From assembly GCF_002847345.1 (NCBI RefSeq), contig NZ_LXFV01000001.1, forward strand, positions 496,001 to 560,000: a stretch of 64,000 nucleotides of DNA, read 5' to 3'. Numbering within the stretch: position 1 is the stretch's first letter; every line of letters begins with the position of its first letter. This document shows positions 52,506 to 61,433 of the stretch, one piece after another. Made by a program: the position numbers and the translations under genes. Below the pieces are notes generated by a model. That model did no database searches and was not told the DNA's origin. It saw only the letters and a program-made list of their open reading frames with translations. Origin of the DNA: Pectobacterium peruviense (GTDB lineage Bacteria > Pseudomonadota > Gammaproteobacteria > Enterobacterales > Enterobacteriaceae).

Positions 52506-53258
52506 ATGCTTTCAAAATATAATAACCCGCCCATTATAAAAACATTTTATCGCCCCATCGAAGTGGCTATTCGGTGGAGTCATTTAATGTCGTCAGAATC
52601 TGAAATACTTAAAAAACTCGATGAAGACCCCCTGTTTTTTTTACATTACGCGTATCAAACATGGCCAAAATTGTCGTTAAATCAAGAAAGAGTGATTGAT
52701 GGGCTTATCAATGGGGAATTGCGTCATAGCAAACGAGGGGTTACTAGTTTGACACCGGTAGACTTAAACGATCCAGATTTATCTATTCGACATGTCGATC
52801 TAAAAAACTGGATGATGTCATATTATCCGAACGAAAAGCCCGATTTTTTATTTTCCCCAGAAGAACGATTAACCCCGATAACAATAAACATGAATTCGGT
52901 GCAAATATTGCTAGCCGAATTAGAGGTGATGCGTATAAAAAATACCGCTCTTGAAGTTCAGCGAAATAATATAAAAAGCGATTATCTTTCACTAAACGCT
53001 ACTTACGCATCAGTGATGATGCACCCTACACAACCCATACTCGGGGAGCGTAGTGAAAGTACGTATCTGACGATTATTGGCGCGTTAATCAGCCTATATA
53101 ACCAACGCTCACCATCAGGCAAGGCCTATACACTTTTTAACTCTCAGGACGCTGTGATTTCTGCCTTAATTGCGCATTATGGCGATAAAAGAGGGATTTC
53201 CAAAAGCACGCTTGAAAGTAAGTTCGCTCAGGCAAAACGCCAGCTCAATGGCACGTAG
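52506..53258 (+). CDS. Uncharacterised 250-residue protein
   Basis: I do not recognise a named domain. The protein has no signal peptide or membrane segment. The N-terminal part (FYRPIEVAIRWSHL) and the middle (RHVDLKNWMMSYYPNEKPDFLF) are the most distinctive, and the C-terminus has a helical segment (STLESKFAQAKRQL) reminiscent of small DNA-associated accessory proteins of enterobacterial genomic islands. Codon use is AT-richer than its neighbours and upstream DNA is strongly AT-rich, so it is likely horizontally acquired. Function unknown. Confidence 0.75.
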   Translation: MLSKYNNPPIIKTFYRPIEVAIRWSHLMSSESEILKKLDEDPLFFLHYAYQTWPKLSLNQERVIDGLINGELRHSKRGVTSLTPVDLNDPDLSIRHVDLKNWMMSYYPNEKPDFLFSPEERLTPITINMNSVQILLAELEVMRIKNTALEVQRNNIKSDYLSLNATYASVMMHPTQPILGERSESTYLTIIGALISLYNQRSPSGKAYTLFNSQDAVISALIAHYGDKRGISKSTLESKFAQAKRQLNGT

Positions 53259-53372
53259 TTCCTACCCTTGCCAGGGTCCAATCCACCCCAGTTAAGGTGA
53301 AAGCCGTATACTCTTTTTTGCATAGTAGGTTATCCGCATCATTCTATTACGCCATAGGGATAATCTACTATC

Positions 53373-55337
53373 ATGCATAAACAGGATCGTTTTGTATTAG
53401 CGTATCGCCCATCATTTCACGCCCAGCGAATCTCACCGACCAGTAGAAAATCGCTAGTATCATCTTTTGTATTTCGCATGCCCTGCTTTCTCATTCTGCT
53501 GTGGACACTCACATTCAGCCCCCCAGGTGTTGCCTTAACGATCGCAGAAACACGACATCTGATAGATCGTACCGGATTTGGCACAACCCCACAGGATATT
53601 GAACGTTTCAACGATATGACGCGGGAGCAAGCCGTGGACTATCTACTGGGCACGCTCAATGCGCCTTTTTACACGCTTCCCCCGACTTTCGTGCAGCAAC
53701 CTCATCCAGATTACTGGCAGGAAGGTTGGCGAGAGCAGAAAATGATTTTTTTCCGTATCAACGAAATTAACCAGCTACAGGCTTGGTGGGTACAGGAAAT
53801 GATCCTTACTCCCACTCCTTTTGCCGATCGTCTCACGCTGTTCTGGCATAACCATTTCGTTTCCCGGTTTGACAATACCCTCATCACCGCGCCTTTTTTC
53901 GATCAGCTCACGCTATTTCGTCAAGCGGGTAGTCAGAGCTTTCGCCTTTTGGCACGAAAAATACTGCAAGATCCCATGATGCTCAGCGGGTTGGATAACA
54001 CGTCCAATACACGCCAACATCCTAATGAAAATCTTGCTAGAGAATTAATGGAGCTCTTTACCCTGGGAGAGGGTAACTACAGTGAAAATGATGTCAAACA
54101 GGTTGCCAAGATTCTGGCAGGGCACGGTGTAAACGCCACGCAACAATGGCGTTATCAATTTGACGCCAGCGCAGCGGTATCCGGCGAAAAAATGCTGCTC
54201 GGCCAGAAAATTCAAGGAACGCCCGATGAAGAACTCGATCAACTTGTCGATGTTTTGTTGTCGCAACCCCAAACGGCAACGCGTCTGGCGGGGAAATTCT
54301 ACCGAGCGTTTATTTCGTTAGAGGACGACCCTGAAACAGTATCGGTATTAGCGCAAGTGCTACGCAATCATGACTATGCGATGAAACCGTTCATGCGAGC
54401 ATTGCTGCTCAGTCCCGCGTTTTGGCACGAACACCATCGTGGATCATTGGTCAAATCCCCATTGGATCTGATCGTCGGCTTTTCTCGCACGCTGTCACTG
54501 GTGTTACCCGATCAACACATCCTACTGGATTATCTCCAAAATTTGGGACAGAGCCCGTTTATGGCCCCCTCCGTAGCGGGATGGGAAGAAGGCACCGCCT
54601 GGCTTGATGGGAAGACACTGGTCGATCGTACCAGAGTGTTAACCCGGCTGTGGTCCGCGATAGAAAGCTCGCCGCTGACTGACAATACGAAGCTAATCGT
54701 GCGTTTTTCATCCGAAAGCCGTGGACTTCCTGCACGTTTTATCGTTACCGCGAATGGGCAACAGCTTGCCAGAATTACCGCCAAGCTCGGAGCAGATACC
54801 CGGCAAGAACAAGCGTCCAACGAACCGGGAAATCTGAAACCGATGTGGGAAACTGTCGCCATTCCACTCCCCAATGCGTCTGCGGTATTGGAAAATGTCA
54901 CTATTACGATGGATGCTGATGAACCCGACACCCATTTATTTATCAATTGGATTTCCTTCAAGGGCTATCGTTTTTCCCCCTATCAGGCCAGTTGGATCAT
55001 TCCGAATGGTTCTTCCTGCCTTGCCGACTCACCGTTAGGATCTTTTTACTGTAACTTAAGTTTATCTTTTGACCTCACCACCCCAATCAGGAGCGAAGCA
55101 GCCAGCCTGATCGATCGGCACGCTCCGCTCAACGCCAATATCGAATACGGTACGGGTCGCCTGAGGCCGCAATTTAGCCAATCGGGAAACCGACTCCCCG
55201 CCAGCATCACGCCTTATACCCGCATACCTGTTGATTCACTACTGGCTACCACACCTTTCGGGCAGCCCGTGCCACCGGATAACAGTGCCACGGCCTTAAA
55301 GGCACTGACGCTTGATCCCGCATTTAATCTGAAATAG
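53373..55337 (+). CDS. Exported DUF1800-family protein with a possible carbohydrate-binding insert
   Basis: A 654-residue protein of the DUF1800 family, shown by RLTLFWHNHFVSRFD and NENLARELMELFTLGEGNYS. A hydrophobic segment near residues 35-53 suggests Sec export; translation could also start at Met35. Residues about 434-532 form a beta-rich insert ending in LFINWISFKGYRF, which resembles calcium-dependent xylan-binding modules (CBM36/60 type). First gene of a four-gene operon; 16 bp before the DUF1501 gene. DUF1800 proteins usually pair with DUF1501 proteins and have no settled function. Confidence 0.85.
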   Translation: MHKQDRFVLAYRPSFHAQRISPTSRKSLVSSFVFRMPCFLILLWTLTFSPPGVALTIAETRHLIDRTGFGTTPQDIERFNDMTREQAVDYLLGTLNAPFYTLPPTFVQQPHPDYWQEGWREQKMIFFRINEINQLQAWWVQEMILTPTPFADRLTLFWHNHFVSRFDNTLITAPFFDQLTLFRQAGSQSFRLLARKILQDPMMLSGLDNTSNTRQHPNENLARELMELFTLGEGNYSENDVKQVAKILAGHGVNATQQWRYQFDASAAVSGEKMLLGQKIQGTPDEELDQLVDVLLSQPQTATRLAGKFYRAFISLEDDPETVSVLAQVLRNHDYAMKPFMRALLLSPAFWHEHHRGSLVKSPLDLIVGFSRTLSLVLPDQHILLDYLQNLGQSPFMAPSVAGWEEGTAWLDGKTLVDRTRVLTRLWSAIESSPLTDNTKLIVRFSSESRGLPARFIVTANGQQLARITAKLGADTRQEQASNEPGNLKPMWETVAIPLPNASAVLENVTITMDADEPDTHLFINWISFKGYRFSPYQASWIIPNGSSCLADSPLGSFYCNLSLSFDLTTPIRSEAASLIDRHAPLNANIEYGTGRLRPQFSQSGNRLPASITPYTRIPVDSLLATTPFGQPVPPDNSATALKALTLDPAFNLK

Positions 55338-55353
55338 ATAAGGACATCTGCTT

Positions 55354-56553
55354 ATGTCTACACCATTTACATTGTCACGGCGCGTGCTCCTCGGCGGGCT
55401 TGGCGCGGGCCTATTAACAGCCATGCTTCCCCTGCGCGGGTTTGCCCAAAACGCCATTCCCACAAACAAGCATTTGATCGTCATCGAATTATTTGGGGGA
55501 AATGATGCATTAAACACGCTGGTTCCCTATCGGGATCCACTCTATCGACATTATCGCCCTACGCTGGCGTTAAACGCTCACGAATATGCACCGTTAAGTG
55601 ATGATCTGGCCTTTAATATCGTCTGGAAAAAGCTCGCTAATGTATTTCAAAAGGGGGAATTAGCGGTAATACAAGATGTTGGCTATCCGTCTCCCAATCT
55701 GTCTCATTTTAGTTCCGCCGCAATCTGGGCCAATGGTGCTGACACCCCAACGCTGAAGTCAGGCTGGGCTGGCCGCGTTCTGAGCACATCTTCACGTGAG
55801 GATCGCTATCATGATACTGACGGCATTATTCTCTCTGGCGATCAGTCTTTACTCATCCATCCGGCGATCCAGGCACTGACGCTTCAGGATAGTCGCGCCC
55901 TACTTAATGCCAATTTCACCCTACCCTCTGCCCACACGAATGATAGAAGTACGACGGCAGCACAGCATATCCTCCGGTTAATGGAGAGTACCAGCACGAT
56001 AAGTCGCCGGATTCAAAATAAGCTGCGCAATCAGAACCATTTCACCCGTCGATTTACACAGGACGGCTACATTGAACCGCAAAACGCGCAAGCGGCAACG
56101 ATACTCTGGCTGATAGAGAACAATGTCCGTTCACCACTATATAAAATCAGTTTGTCTGGCTTCGATTTGCATAGCCATTTACGCGGTGAACATGAACGCC
56201 AGCTCAGTAAAGTAGAGACGTTGCTGCTTGGGCTACGGCAAGGACTCATCGATATTGGTGCCTGGCAGGATAGCCTGATTATGGTGCATTCGGAGTTCGG
56301 CCGTCGGCCAAAAGAGAATGCATCGGGCGGAACCGATCACGGCACGTGCGGGCCGATGCTGCTAGTTGGCGGTCAAGTCGAGGGAGGTATCTGGGGAAAT
56401 CGCAGCCCACTCGATAAGTTGGATAACGACGGCAACCCTTATTTTTCGACCGACTTCCGCTCGGTATATGCCACCGTCGCCGAACGTTTTTGGCGACTTC
56501 CCGCCGCTCAGGTTAGCGGAACATCGCTCTCCCCGCTGAATATTCATCTTTAA
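55354..56553 (+). CDS. Tat-exported DUF1501-family protein
   Basis: A 399-residue protein with a twin-arginine signal (SRRVLLGG, residues about 8-15, then a hydrophobic stretch ending RGFAQNA), so it is exported folded, often with a cofactor or metal. The body has DUF1501 hallmarks: IELFGGNDALNTLVPY, HFSSAAIWANG, FDLHSH, SEFGRRPKENASGGTDHG. DUF1501 has an alkaline-phosphatase/sulfatase-like core, with the His- and Asp-rich segments as probable metal ligands. It follows the DUF1800 gene by 16 bp and precedes the glycosyltransferase fusion by 33 bp. Confidence 0.88.
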   Translation: MSTPFTLSRRVLLGGLGAGLLTAMLPLRGFAQNAIPTNKHLIVIELFGGNDALNTLVPYRDPLYRHYRPTLALNAHEYAPLSDDLAFNIVWKKLANVFQKGELAVIQDVGYPSPNLSHFSSAAIWANGADTPTLKSGWAGRVLSTSSREDRYHDTDGIILSGDQSLLIHPAIQALTLQDSRALLNANFTLPSAHTNDRSTTAAQHILRLMESTSTISRRIQNKLRNQNHFTRRFTQDGYIEPQNAQAATILWLIENNVRSPLYKISLSGFDLHSHLRGEHERQLSKVETLLLGLRQGLIDIGAWQDSLIMVHSEFGRRPKENASGGTDHGTCGPMLLVGGQVEGGIWGNRSPLDKLDNDGNPYFSTDFRSVYATVAERFWRLPAAQVSGTSLSPLNIHL

Positions 56554-56586
56554 CCCACCGCCTTATTTCTACAGGACACGCTTTCT

Positions 56587-59500
56587 ATGCAGAAAACAAT
56601 GACACCAAGCCATCCTCCGACAACGACAGACATGACAGACAGCAAAAACTGGCAGATGTTGGCAAAAATCCGTCAATCTTGTCGTGATAATATCCATATC
56701 AGTGGAGAGCTCCCCACCGGACAAACCGATATTCTGGTTTGCCTCACGCTGTATAACGAACCTGCGCCCATGCTTGCCGATACGCTGGCGGGGCTGGTGC
56801 GTAACCAGCAAGAGTTAACCGCAACGTTTGCCGATCGTCCGCCCAACATCATCATTTGCATCCTGCTTGATGGCACCAACAGTGCTCACCCATCAACCGT
56901 TTCACTTTTAGGGTCGCTAGGGTTGCTGCCAATGCAAATGCCCAGAGCGGATAGCCAGAATAATTCACTGACGCTTCAGGTCAGCGAACAGCCCGCCTCG
57001 CATATTCTGCGCTGCTGCGATCAATCTGACGCCATTGAAAACGCGGAGCAGAGCATTACGCTACTTCTTGCCAACAAACACCATAATGCAGGAAAGCTGG
57101 ATAGCCACGCCTGGTTTTTCTGGGGCGTTGGAAGTGTCGTTAAAGCCGAGTTTGCTATGCAGATTGATGTCGGTTCGGTGACAGAATCAGCATGTTTGAT
57201 ACAGTTGCTACAACACATGTGGCGAGATCCTTATTGTGGGGCCATCACAACGCGCGTTATGCTCCCGGTTCCCACGAATGCAAACCTGTCTCAGAATTGG
57301 CAATACGCCGATTTTATCTGGGAAAAAGTCAGTGATTGGGCCATCGGCAGCGCTCTGCATTATCTGGAAGTGGTTCCAGGGCAATGCAGTATGATTCGAT
57401 GGAGCCAATTTTGTGAAAACCACGGACATTCGCACGCGCCGCTCGACGCCTACCTGCGTGGGCTAATTCCTCAGAGTTTACTGGAGCGCAACCTGTTTCT
57501 CGCGGAGGATCGGGTTCTGGGATTTGAACTGACCAAACACCATAAAGGAAGCGGAGTACGTTATGAGCAAGGTGCCATCGTTCGTTCGGATCCTGCTCCC
57601 ACCTTCATAGAACTTCTGCGCCAGCGACGGCGCTGGGTCAACAGTACTATTGCCGCTCGCTTGCACTCACTGTCCCGATTGCCTGCGGTGATGACACAGT
57701 CTTCTCTTTCGCCACTGCGGCGCTGCGGTATTGCGCTTTCTTTGCTTTGGGGAATGTTGCAGTTTATTGCTCAATTTATCATGCCGGCATTTGTCGCCAT
57801 CTTGCTCGCCACTGGCGTACACCCACTTGCCAGCCATATCCTGCCAGATGCCGCACCGTCTCTTATCACCGCCGCAGCCATAGGTATGGCGCTGCTTTTC
57901 CTTGTCGTATGGATAAGCATCCTCTTTATGAGCCGCAGTACCACCTTGACTAGCGAGGTTGGCACACGCTACCACGTCTCAGCGATGTTGCTATTAGGTG
58001 CATTAATGGGGGGCGCATTCGTCTTCACGCTGCGGGTGGCACCCATACCGAGCATTGGCCTCATGGGTGTAGCACTTTTCTTGCTTTGCCTTGCAATTAG
58101 CCTGCATTCATTGCGCTATCTGCGACAGTTCATACGCTGGATGCCCCTTTACCTCATGCTATTACCCGTCTTCAGTCTCTATCTGACAACCTACTCTATC
58201 GCCAACATTAACGATGTCAGTTGGGGAACCAAAGGCTTGACTACTAATCATGTTGAGGAGAATAAACAAAAATCGTGGGCGGCCACACGCAACAAAGTGC
58301 TCTTTATCTGGAGTGCCTGTTCACTGAGCGCCGTGCTGCTGTTCTTGCTGACACTCCCTAACACGCAATGGATGTTCGTTATCCAATGTGCCTCCACGTT
58401 TTTCTGTGCCCGCATAATACTGTCATCCTCCGTCAGCATCGGTGCCAGTATCACCAAACGATTGCGGACTCTGCGTAAACACACCCCCATGCCGTTTGTC
58501 GATCGCGTTGAATGTCCAGTTTCCACCTCACTCCCTATCGTCAGGCCGGTTTTTCCCCCTTTCGCGTCATTCGCTTCGCTGATCAAAGAGAGTCTTACCT
58601 CCGGCCATGTCACGAACAATGGCCCCTATGTTCGTCAGTTAGAAAGCCGATTAACTGAATATCAATCGGTCCCCACACGCGTATTCTGTAACGGTGAGCA
58701 GGCGCTCATTACCCTGTTACTGGCCGCCGACATTCGGGGTAAAGACGTCATTGTTCCCTCATTTACCTTTGCTGGCACGCCCCATGCGGTTGTTATGGCT
58801 GGGGGAAACCCCGTGTTTGCTGATATCAAAAGCCGGGATTGCCCGCTGCTGGATGCCAACGATGTCGTGCACCGCATCACGGCGAATACCTGTGCGATTG
58901 TCGCGGTGGACGTGTATGGTTACGCCAGCGACTATTCCGCCTTGCAAAAAATTGCGCGAGACCACGGACTGCGTCTGTTTATCGACAGTGCCCCTGCGTT
59001 TGGTACTACGATCAATGGACAACGAACCGGTGGTTTCGGCGATGCACAGATTTTCAGTTTTCACGCAACAAAGCCATATAACACCATTGAAGGTGGCTGC
59101 CTATGCAGCCATGACGCAGAGCTTATCAAGCGTGCCGAAGCGATACGCAATTTCGGGTTGGATGCATCAGGCATCTGCGTATCTCCTGGATTAAATGGCA
59201 AGATGAGTGAACTCAACGCGATTATCGGGCTGGCGCAGCTTCCTTATCTGGAATCGCAATTAACGTGCCGCCGACAAGCGGCGTCACATCTGATTGCAGG
59301 TATAACGTCCATCCCCGGCCTTACACTCTGCTTACCTCCCGAGGGCCAATCCCCTGTCTGGCAGTATCTACCCATTCACGTAGACGCAAAGCGCTACGGT
59401 ATGGATCGTAACGACCTGCAACACGCGCTGCATGCCCAAGGGATCATGGTGCGCTGCTATTACGCCCCAGCCTGTCATCTCATGCCAGCCTACGCAGGGG

Positions 59501-59667
59501 AGCATCAGGCCACGCTCCCACAAACCGAACACCTGTCTGCCTGCGTTCTGGCATTGCCAATTTACAACGACATGACGGAGAAAGAATGCGAACGCATCAT
59601 TACCTCGCTCCGTGCAGTCGCCCTTTCTCCCATCACTCACCACGCGGCTGAAGGAGTATACGCATGA
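56587..59667 (+). CDS. Fusion of chitin-synthase-like GT2 and DegT-family aminotransferase
   Basis: A 1026-residue two-part enzyme. The N-terminal part (about 1-370) is a family 2 glycosyltransferase with chitin-synthase-type motifs: NAGKLDSHAWFF (167-178), Asp194 in QIDVGS, EDR (307-309) and QRRRW (346-350). About seven transmembrane helices follow (roughly 380-620). The C-terminal part (about 655-1015) is a DegT/DnrJ/EryC1 sugar aminotransferase with the PLP lysine at Lys829 (FHATKPYN) and SAPAFGTT. Predicted: polymerises or transfers a sugar at the membrane while making an amino-sugar precursor. Overlaps the epimerase gene by 4 bp. I know no characterised enzyme with this fusion. Confidence 0.87.
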   Translation: MQKTMTPSHPPTTTDMTDSKNWQMLAKIRQSCRDNIHISGELPTGQTDILVCLTLYNEPAPMLADTLAGLVRNQQELTATFADRPPNIIICILLDGTNSAHPSTVSLLGSLGLLPMQMPRADSQNNSLTLQVSEQPASHILRCCDQSDAIENAEQSITLLLANKHHNAGKLDSHAWFFWGVGSVVKAEFAMQIDVGSVTESACLIQLLQHMWRDPYCGAITTRVMLPVPTNANLSQNWQYADFIWEKVSDWAIGSALHYLEVVPGQCSMIRWSQFCENHGHSHAPLDAYLRGLIPQSLLERNLFLAEDRVLGFELTKHHKGSGVRYEQGAIVRSDPAPTFIELLRQRRRWVNSTIAARLHSLSRLPAVMTQSSLSPLRRCGIALSLLWGMLQFIAQFIMPAFVAILLATGVHPLASHILPDAAPSLITAAAIGMALLFLVVWISILFMSRSTTLTSEVGTRYHVSAMLLLGALMGGAFVFTLRVAPIPSIGLMGVALFLLCLAISLHSLRYLRQFIRWMPLYLMLLPVFSLYLTTYSIANINDVSWGTKGLTTNHVEENKQKSWAATRNKVLFIWSACSLSAVLLFLLTLPNTQWMFVIQCASTFFCARIILSSSVSIGASITKRLRTLRKHTPMPFVDRVECPVSTSLPIVRPVFPPFASFASLIKESLTSGHVTNNGPYVRQLESRLTEYQSVPTRVFCNGEQALITLLLAADIRGKDVIVPSFTFAGTPHAVVMAGGNPVFADIKSRDCPLLDANDVVHRITANTCAIVAVDVYGYASDYSALQKIARDHGLRLFIDSAPAFGTTINGQRTGGFGDAQIFSFHATKPYNTIEGGCLCSHDAELIKRAEAIRNFGLDASGICVSPGLNGKMSELNAIIGLAQLPYLESQLTCRRQAASHLIAGITSIPGLTLCLPPEGQSPVWQYLPIHVDAKRYGMDRNDLQHALHAQGIMVRCYYAPACHLMPAYAGEHQATLPQTEHLSACVLALPIYNDMTEKECERIITSLRAVALSPITHHAAEGVYA

Positions 59668-60692
59668 AAAACACGATTCTGGTCGCTGGCGCAGGTGGCT
59701 ACATAGGCATACCGCTATGCCATTTATTAATTAATCAGGGATATCGCGTGGTGGCCTTCGATCGCTTTTTCTTCGGCCTTCCTGTATCAGAAATGCCACA
59801 ATCACCAGAGTTCCATACGTTACGTGGCGATATACGCTACATCACCCCCGATATATTGCACAATGTTGAAGCCGTCATCGATCTCGCGGGATTAAGCAAC
59901 GATCCTGCCGCACAGATATCATCCACGCTCACTCATGCCATCAATTACGAAGGCGCTTGTCATCTCGCAAATACGGCGAAAAAGGCGGGTATTCAGCGCT
60001 ATATCTATATGAGTTCCGCCTCAGTTTATGGTCGTTCTGGTTCAACACCCGCAGATGAAGAGACAGAGTGCCAACCACAGAGTCTCTACGCGGAGCTGAA
60101 ACTCAATGTGGAACGTGAACTTCTTCGACTGCGTGATACCACCTTTCATCCGATCATTCTGCGCAATGCCACCGTGTTCGGCCTCGCGCCTCGCATGCGT
60201 TATGATCTCTCCGTCAATATCATGACGCATATGGCTGTGCGGGATAAATTCATTGCCATTGATGGTGATGGTCTCCAGCAACGTCCGTTTATTCACGTTA
60301 AGGATGTCGCTCGTGCCGTACTACTCACCTTACAGCTTAATCGCCCGCTTTCGGCGCCACCCGTATTTAATATTGGTGGCGACGTGTTAAATCACAACAT
60401 CAATAGCATTGCTAGCATCATCGCTGAGGAAGTGCCCAACGTGAAAATCGTTCATCGCCCGCAATCTCTGGATACCCGTGATTATCGACTCTGTTTTTTC
60501 CATGCGAAAAACACGTTAGGCTTTTCACCGACACGCAGCATTCGAGATGGTGTAAGAGAAATTGCGCATGTCCTGACTACCGATCAAGAGGCAGGAACAC
60601 AGCCGACCTGCTTTACTGCACAGTGGTACACCGATTTGATTGAGTGGGAGAAACGCTTACAGCCTTTGCAACTAGATGGACACCTCTTTTAG
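59664..60692 (+). CDS. NAD-dependent sugar epimerase/dehydratase
   Basis: A 342-residue extended SDR: dinucleotide-binding GAGGYIG (about 9-15), catalytic Ser region SSASVYG, and YAELK (Tyr and Lys). It probably acts on a nucleotide sugar, supplying the substrate for the DegT domain or glycosyltransferase upstream. Its ATG overlaps the fusion gene stop (ATGA); a hairpin 19 bp after its stop closes the operon. Confidence 0.9.
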   Translation: MKNTILVAGAGGYIGIPLCHLLINQGYRVVAFDRFFFGLPVSEMPQSPEFHTLRGDIRYITPDILHNVEAVIDLAGLSNDPAAQISSTLTHAINYEGACHLANTAKKAGIQRYIYMSSASVYGRSGSTPADEETECQPQSLYAELKLNVERELLRLRDTTFHPIILRNATVFGLAPRMRYDLSVNIMTHMAVRDKFIAIDGDGLQQRPFIHVKDVARAVLLTLQLNRPLSAPPVFNIGGDVLNHNINSIASIIAEEVPNVKIVHRPQSLDTRDYRLCFFHAKNTLGFSPTRSIRDGVREIAHVLTTDQEAGTQPTCFTAQWYTDLIEWEKRLQPLQLDGHLF

Positions 60693-60711: not shown

Positions 60712-60735
60712 CGTTGCCCCTGAACCGGGGCAACG
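60712..60735. terminator. Terminator-like hairpin closing the glycan operon
   Basis: Perfect CGTTGCCCC / GGGGCAACG with a 6-nt loop, 19 bp after the epimerase stop. No long T-tract follows, so efficiency is uncertain. Confidence 0.65.
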
Positions 60736-60869: not shown

Positions 60870-61118
60870 TTAATCTCGAATCTTGCGGTAAACCCACAGC
60901 ACAACAATCGCGCCGACAACCGCGACGACAAAGCTGCCGAAGTTAAAGCCATCCACCCGACCGAACCCAAAGAAAACGCTGATGTAGCCACCCACAACTG
61001 CACCGACAATCCCGAGTAGCACCGTCAGGATGAAGCCACCGCCGTCTTTACCGGGCATAATCCACTTAGCCAAAATCCCCGCAATCAAGCCAAAAATAAC
61101 CCAGGACAGAATACCCAT
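60870..61118 (-). CDS. GlsB/YeaQ/YmgE-family stress membrane protein
   Basis: An 82-residue protein with three hydrophobic helices and the family pattern GLIAGILAKWIMPGKDGGG. The start is ATG at 61118 with GAGGAG upstream; the frame extends to 61247 but without a ribosome site. These small transglycosylase-associated family proteins are induced by stress or stationary phase; molecular role unclear. Confidence 0.9.
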   Translation of the reverse strand: MGILSWVIFGLIAGILAKWIMPGKDGGGFILTVLLGIVGAVVGGYISVFFGFGRVDGFNFGSFVVAVVGAIVVLWVYRKIRD

Positions 61119-61433
61119 ACTTACTCCTCGCGTTTTCGTTTCACCACACCCGACTTGCCGTTCGTTATCAAATCGGGCAGTTAAGCAAGTATAGGTGAGG
61201 ATTGAGGAAATGGCTGGTGGTGCATACTTAGTTATGCCAGCAAGCAATAGTAGGCTAAGTAACGTATGAGACCACTATTATATAGAAGCGCCTCATATGA
61301 TAGTGCTGTTATCAACACACGCAAACAGCTCACGAATGTGACCTAGCCCAGTCACCATCATGAGTAACTGAGCTCAAGTGAGCTTCATATCCTGCAATCG
61401 ACATATTTCTGAGCAAATTCAGGATATAGCACA
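61119..61433. other. Intergenic region
   Basis: 315 bp between two minus-strand genes, with probable promoter of the small membrane protein gene and the 3' region of the large helical-repeat gene. No gene, repeat or RNA that I can support. Confidence 0.45.

Follow-up and report, generated by a model that had tools for sequence, protein, structure and literature searches.

Proteins of the DUF1800 and DUF1501 families form a widespread pair for which, to our knowledge, no role has been agreed. The closest described system is a bacterial operon built around a division-1 chitin synthase (CHS) derived from eukaryotes, the gene for which is co-localised with genes for DUF1800, DUF1501 and a sugar epimerase (Goncalves et al., 2016; PMC5122149). 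In the passages of that paper drawn on here, the bacterial CHS proteins are nested in the eukaryotic division-1 clade, carriers include Pectobacterium, Brenneria, Dickeya and others, the synthase is fused to an aminotransferase (AT) in Pectobacterium and Brenneria, and DUF1501 bears a twin-arginine translocation (Tat) signal. The authors propose a functional link between the genes, with possible modification of chitin or chito-oligosaccharides, and their figure also draws unnamed hypothetical genes. Among the excerpts of other papers used here, a table of species-specific genes of Dickeya fangzhongdai contains a DUF1501 gene together with the glycosyltransferase gene that has the next number (PMC6329079), and both DUF families appear in a table of Xanthomonas orphan proteins linked to the type VI secretion system (PMC6653060). 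Here, we analyse an operon of this type at positions 53373–60692 of a 64,000-nucleotide stretch of the Pectobacterium peruviense genome (contig NZ_LXFV01000001.1, positions 496,001–560,000; hereafter, the window).

Four open reading frames (ORFs) on the plus strand were confirmed within this interval. The first (53373–55337) encodes a DUF1800 protein of 654 aa (PF08811, E 3e-92) with an N-terminal hydrophobic export signal, its most hydrophobic 19-residue stretch being residues 28–46. It is followed by a 399-aa DUF1501 protein (55354–56553; PF07394, E 8e-28) with the twin-arginine signal SRRVLL, and by a 1026-aa fusion (56587–59667; PF01644 and PF01041) that joins a membrane-embedded chitin synthase of glycosyltransferase family 2 (GT2; 56587–58497; PF01644 Chitin_synth_1, E 1e-31) to a sugar aminotransferase of the DegT/DnrJ/EryC1/StrS family (58498–59667; PF01041, E 7e-82). 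The last ORF (59664–60692) encodes a 342-aa short-chain dehydrogenase/reductase (SDR; PF01370, E 1e-38), annotated as an epimerase; as an NAD-dependent sugar-nucleotide oxidoreductase, it could be an epimerase or a C4-dehydrogenase. The window thus holds a division-1 CHS without PF08407, co-oriented DUF1800, DUF1501 and epimerase genes, and the AT fusion. Genus, gene set, Tat signal and horizontal origin are all shared with the operon described in the passages of PMC5122149: the window operon is the published, horizontally acquired chitin-synthase operon of Pectobacterium, and is known in outline.

The first-pass annotation of the window had given the spacing of the four genes as gaps of 16 and 33 bp followed by a 4-bp overlap, which is exact. 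Spacing was measured at 12 loci, with the relatives' starts set to match those of the window; genome G002, 100% identical to the window in all five proteins, was left out here, as well as from the leader alignment and the trees described below. The gaps are nearly invariant (15–16 bp and 32–33 bp) in seven Pectobacterium loci, window included, and the overlap recurs in all five measured Pectobacterium loci that have the last gene. The operon genes are under purifying selection, with ratios of nonsynonymous to synonymous substitution rates (dN/dS) of 0.09–0.26 between the window and four to six relatives per gene.

The synthase had been annotated as chitin-synthase-like, and it does belong to the chitin-synthase family of GT2 enzymes. 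Its nearest solved chain is the chitin synthase 7wjm (E 6e-38, residues 48–552 aligned), hydrophobic segments lie between residues 380 and 512 and at residues 569–592, and the motifs EDR, QRRRW and SWGTKG are intact. In the general form EDR, Q-R-(R/K)-R-W and WGTKG, which we take to be signature motifs of chitin synthases, all three were found in each of the 13 CHS proteins scanned; two further motifs each have an exception, D-(V/A/T)-G being missing in Dickeya oryzae and KLDSH in the protein of contig L080. The window CHS shares the GT2 core and the three signature motifs with eukaryotic division-1 chitin synthases (7wjm, 7stl, 7xs6), but differs from them in having no N-terminal PF08407 (no match at E <=0.1) and in carrying the C-terminal sugar aminotransferase. 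The L080 protein is a CHS-like frame (L080:134–2245) on a Hyphomicrobiales metagenome-assembled contig, and the exact KLDSH that it lacks is present in the other 12 proteins. A search of plasmids for CHS returned no match.

We surveyed the co-occurrence of these genes in 118 relatives, 71 of them in the window's family. A PF01644 CHS was found in nine genomes, DUF1800 in 27 and DUF1501 above cut-off in 26; within the family, the genomes with DUF1800 and those with above-cut-off DUF1501 are the nine CHS genomes and no others. CHS itself is rare, being present in 5 of 392 genomes of a family sample and in 2 of 398 of a phylum sample, both of the window's genus. Fourteen CHS loci were examined (eight from the genus, G038, G412 and four from named genomes). 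The order DUF1800–DUF1501–CHS is kept in 13 of them, including those of Rhizobium, Allorhizobium and Dickeya; the fourteenth is on the Hyphomicrobiales contig, which has only 133 bases ahead of the CHS frame, so that the order cannot be judged there. These conserved loci span two classes, with gaps of 4–44 bp in the 12 measured. The ten genes flanking CHS in Rhizobium, Dickeya, Allorhizobium, G412, G038 and L080 showed no common theme.

Trees of CHS, DUF1800 and DUF1501 were built from 12 of the 14 loci, the L080 contig being left out for having no neighbouring genes. They share a single topology except at some tip nodes of weak support: one group joins G038 to Dickeya and G412, another pairs the two Rhizobiaceae, and a third is the Pectobacterium set. 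The Rhizobiaceae rows are long branches, and in the DUF1800 tree their pairing was flagged as one that may be false. The matching trees agree with the joint transfer inferred in PMC5122149. Co-occurrence among relatives, constant gene order and agreeing trees bear out the first-pass view of the operon as one inherited unit; DUF1800, DUF1501 and CHS recur together across relatives, and AT and epimerase accompany them in 6 of the 14 loci.

What may link the DUF1800 protein to a glycan is its C-terminal region. Residues 434–532 had been picked out in the first-pass annotation as an insert that might bind carbohydrate. Structure prediction agreed as to the fold, a beta-sandwich resembling that of carbohydrate-binding module family 60 (CBM60), but not as to the extent: the residues belong to a larger C-terminal domain (residues 438–573; 54684–55091, plus strand), assigned by fold match, which is located after the point where the DUF1800 profile ends, or takes the place of that end. 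In overall sequence, the domain is 12% and 11% identical to the calcium-dependent CBM60 modules 2xfd and 2xhh. Since it has no relevant sequence-profile match, we term it CBM60-like and not a member of CBM60. It was found in all three CHS genomes compared (G017, G038 and G412) and in none of the 18 CHS-less genomes with DUF1800; G038 has two DUF1800 genes, and only the CHS-linked one carries the domain. None of the 165 other genomes in a class sample of 166 has it, a figure that speaks to the rarity of the domain only, as DUF1800 was not counted in that sample. The notion of an insert unique to this strain was ruled out, as the domain is present in all six alignment rows as well as in G017, G038 and G412. 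On the predicted structure, the C-terminal domain of DUF1800 is a carbohydrate-binding-like fold, and in the genomes analysed here it was found only beside a chitin synthase. The DUF1501 protein looks alkaline-phosphatase-like, its resemblance to that superfamily resting on a weak model (mean predicted local distance difference test score, pLDDT, 43).

These data bear on whether DUF1800 and DUF1501 keep a usual, CHS-independent role in the envelope and have simply moved along with the synthase. The pair often occurs in genomes that have no CHS, as in 18 of the 27 DUF1800 relatives, all of them elsewhere in the order. However, a passenger role sits poorly with an order that is kept, at short spacing and with matching trees, in 13 loci of two classes, and with a domain restricted to CHS-linked DUF1800 copies even where a genome has two. 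We regard it as very improbable.

The last part of the operon behaves differently from the first. Six of the 14 CHS loci have both AT and SDR, and the other eight have neither. Within the genus, six of the eight CHS genomes have the AT fusion, which is missing in P. zantedeschiae (G022) and in G017. At the P. zantedeschiae locus (L076:10001–11968) there is neither an AT domain nor an SDR, the junction is clean and the same downstream sequence is kept. This species groups in the trees with species that have both genes; together with the clean junction, its position makes a single gain followed by one loss the simplest history. AT and SDR are an optional module, then, and not a fixed part of the operon, and their joint presence or absence suggests that they serve one pathway.

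Sequence comparisons give this pathway a possible chemistry. The AT domain scores 275.9 bits against PF01041 (gathering score 19.8), and its best matches in both NCBIfam (DesI, TIGR04427) and the PDB (2po3, E 4e-64) point to DesI-type C4-aminotransferases, 2po3 being, we believe, DesI itself. DesI is a C4-aminotransferase of a 4-keto sugar nucleotide; the window AT differs from it in being fused to a chitin synthase. The lysine of the motif FSFHATK (fusion residues 823–829) presumably binds pyridoxal phosphate, as in the family at large. For the SDR, which has the motifs SSAS and YAELK, the best PDB match is 6vo6 (E 3e-28, with a common PRMRxDLxVN stretch), which we take to be Cj1427. Alpha-ketoglutarate is the co-product of glutamate-dependent transamination. 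Cj1427 is described, in the excerpt used here, as a C4-dehydrogenase that acts on GDP-heptose and is run with alpha-ketoglutarate (PMC10680097). The window SDR is likened to Cj1427 through 6vo6 by sequence similarity only. With the AT near C4-aminotransferases and the SDR near 6vo6, oxidation followed by amination at C4 is a coherent reading. The two proteins resemble a C4-aminotransferase and a C4-dehydrogenase, and may make a 4-amino sugar that caps the chitin chain.

The first-pass label of 'sugar epimerase' holds for the family of the SDR, PF01370, but not for a fixed operon part, and the nearest structure, 6vo6, is the presumed C4-dehydrogenase. If the last gene nonetheless encodes a true C4-epimerase and the AT acts on another sugar, the product would be a mixed amino-sugar heteropolymer, for example an exopolysaccharide with N-acetylgalactosamine-type units, and would lie nearer to the exopolysaccharide or cell-envelope amino-glycan suggested in the first-pass annotation. 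PF01370 is an epimerase family, GalE-type models match the SDR too, and a YxxxK motif fits either reaction. The NCBIfam GalE model, however, reaches 81 bits where its cut-off is 262, the best solved structure is not a GalE, and the coming and going of AT and SDR together suggests one pathway for both. We therefore hold the heteropolymer unlikely.

Within the genus, the inherited unit also appears to include the gene at 52506–53258 (plus strand), a fifth operon gene at the genus level as judged by its pattern of presence with CHS. It encodes a 250-aa protein of unknown family. Of the 118 genomes, exactly the eight CHS carriers of the genus have the gene; it was not found in the remaining 110, which include the CHS carrier G038. 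In the seven loci measured it ends 112–114 bp upstream of DUF1800, and its dN/dS is 0.13–0.15. The protein has no Pfam or PADLOC match, and neither its NCBIfam match (E 0.049) nor its PHROG match (E 0.009) is meaningful, leaving a prophage or defence origin unsupported. The G+C fraction of the gene, 0.40, is below that of its neighbours.

The reading that we prefer, tentatively and at slightly less than an even chance, is that the operon makes a secreted chain of N-acetylglucosamine (GlcNAc) which is bound by DUF1800 through the CBM60-like domain, modified by DUF1501 and, in some of the species, closed off with a 4-amino sugar as a cap. The CHS, in the inner membrane, would polymerise GlcNAc from UDP-GlcNAc and thread the chain into the periplasm, where the exported DUF1800 protein would hold it through its C-terminal domain, and the Tat-exported DUF1501 protein, a putative metalloenzyme of alkaline-phosphatase-superfamily type, would modify or release it. 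In the cytosol of six genomes, the SDR would oxidise C4 of a nucleotide sugar and the CHS-fused AT would add an amino group there, so that a 4-amino sugar nucleotide results. As chitin extends through O4, a 4-amino residue could presumably only end a chain, and its likely effect would be a capped, length-limited chito-oligosaccharide. A bolder version would make the operon a chitin-secretion machine, with DUF1800 as a BcsB-like chain guide, DUF1501 as a phosphatase-fold modifier, and an optional module supplying 4-amino-4-deoxy-GlcNAc as the chain terminator that sets the length. We found no sign that DUF1800 is homologous to BcsB of the cellulose synthase BcsA–BcsB, and we consider this version quite doubtful.

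Several results weigh against the preferred reading of a bound, modified and capped GlcNAc chain. For the DUF1800 protein, Foldseek returned no match of the model at E 0.001 or better, and everywhere but in the C-terminal domain the model is of low quality (mean pLDDT 53). A profile of six domain sequences found no PDB chain at E <=10, though 2xfd and 2xhh are in the PDB, and the sole Pfam match of the domain is AsqO_C (E 0.07), in one member. The low quality of the DUF1501 model counts in the same direction, as do three of the five tree rows from outside the genus, each marked as a long branch in at least one tree. As to the module, the AT reaches 280 bits against the DesI model, for which the cut-off is 650, and the SDR matches GalE as noted above. 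AT and SDR are also seldom neighbours elsewhere: within 1.5-kb flanks, an AT was found at 1 of 28 SDR homologue loci (L104–L131) and an SDR at 1 of 21 AT homologue loci, and when the view was widened to about 5 kb on either side at 20 of these SDR places, six had an AT, four of these from one genus and about 5 kb off. None of the five cassette genes resembles an outer-membrane exporter, and in the openly licensed literature we found no functional study, activity or product of a bacterial CHS.

We also examined the genomic setting of the cassette. In the window, the cassette, preceded by a LysE-type gene, sits between the genes for an ATP-binding cassette (ABC) transporter and a small transglycosylase-associated protein. 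The same slot was examined in 15 CHS-less genomes with the ABC gene, keeping matches of >60% identity and leaving out the CHS-less G006 and G011, which have no close ABC flank gene. It is empty in nine, holds the LysE-type gene only in one and an enzyme module in four, and is unresolved in one (L097). No cassette gene was found in the slots of these 15 genomes, and DUF1800, CHS, DUF1501 and the 250-aa gene are absent genome-wide there. Variable contents without partial cassettes mark the slot as a hotspot, and the cassette is carried whole or not at all, save for its last part. The cassette of G017 is separated from the ABC gene by about 20 kb or more, so the insertion site differs among carriers.

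The enzyme module consists of a dehydrogenase, a TauD dioxygenase, a sulfotransferase and a class III aminotransferase and, as seen at L074:13441–17494, uses the same slot independently of CHS. It follows the cassette in four of the eight same-genus loci (G003, G017, G022 and G024), which lends some support to a different product: a small secreted molecule, either a chito-oligosaccharide signal or a secondary metabolite, which the neighbouring enzymes would decorate and which would act on the plant host or competitors. Chito-oligosaccharides are raised as an alternative in the passages of PMC5122149, and a capping module would favour short products. Yet the enzyme module also stands without CHS in 4 of the 15 Pectobacterium slots and is not found after the window cassette, which points to an independent island gene set, and we rejected it as part of the system. 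The cassette genes, moreover, have no acyltransferase or deacetylase family match. A small decorated signal seems to us rather unlikely.

Two possible control elements frame the operon. Upstream, an inverted repeat (53322–53371, not assigned to a strand) with 14-nt arms (53322–53335 and 53358–53371) and a 22-nt spacer stops one base short of the DUF1800 start codon and is kept in all seven aligned Pectobacterium loci; it may be an operator or a leader hairpin. One pair is altered on both sides, most columns are invariant and covariation contributes a slightly unfavourable term to the consensus fold, so that an RNA hairpin and a protein operator are not distinguished. Downstream, the hairpin that the first-pass annotation had placed at the end of the operon does exist (60712–60735; 9 pairs, -18.5 kcal/mol), but its T run, as required of an intrinsic terminator, is on the minus strand, so that it would serve the convergent gene at 60870–61130 better than this operon. 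A scan of the window found nine terminator-like sites against a mean of 9.6 in shuffles, and hence no excess. Further downstream, a minus-strand ORF of at least 840 aa (61434–63956) has its frame open to the window end; it has no Pfam, NCBIfam or PADLOC match, and its sole PHROG match is at E 0.09.

Beyond the passages of PMC5122149 drawn on here, our analysis adds the CBM60-like domain found only with CHS, the AT–SDR module with its joint absences and its reading as a C4-aminotransferase and C4-dehydrogenase, the fifth gene at 52506–53258, the agreeing trees and the phosphatase likeness of DUF1501. A CHS-linked DUF1800 protein with a carbohydrate-binding-like domain points to a link between the DUF1800/DUF1501 pair and a glycan on its way out of the inner membrane. 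A 4-amino chain ending, if true, would explain the product of the published but uncharacterised bacterial chitin synthases.

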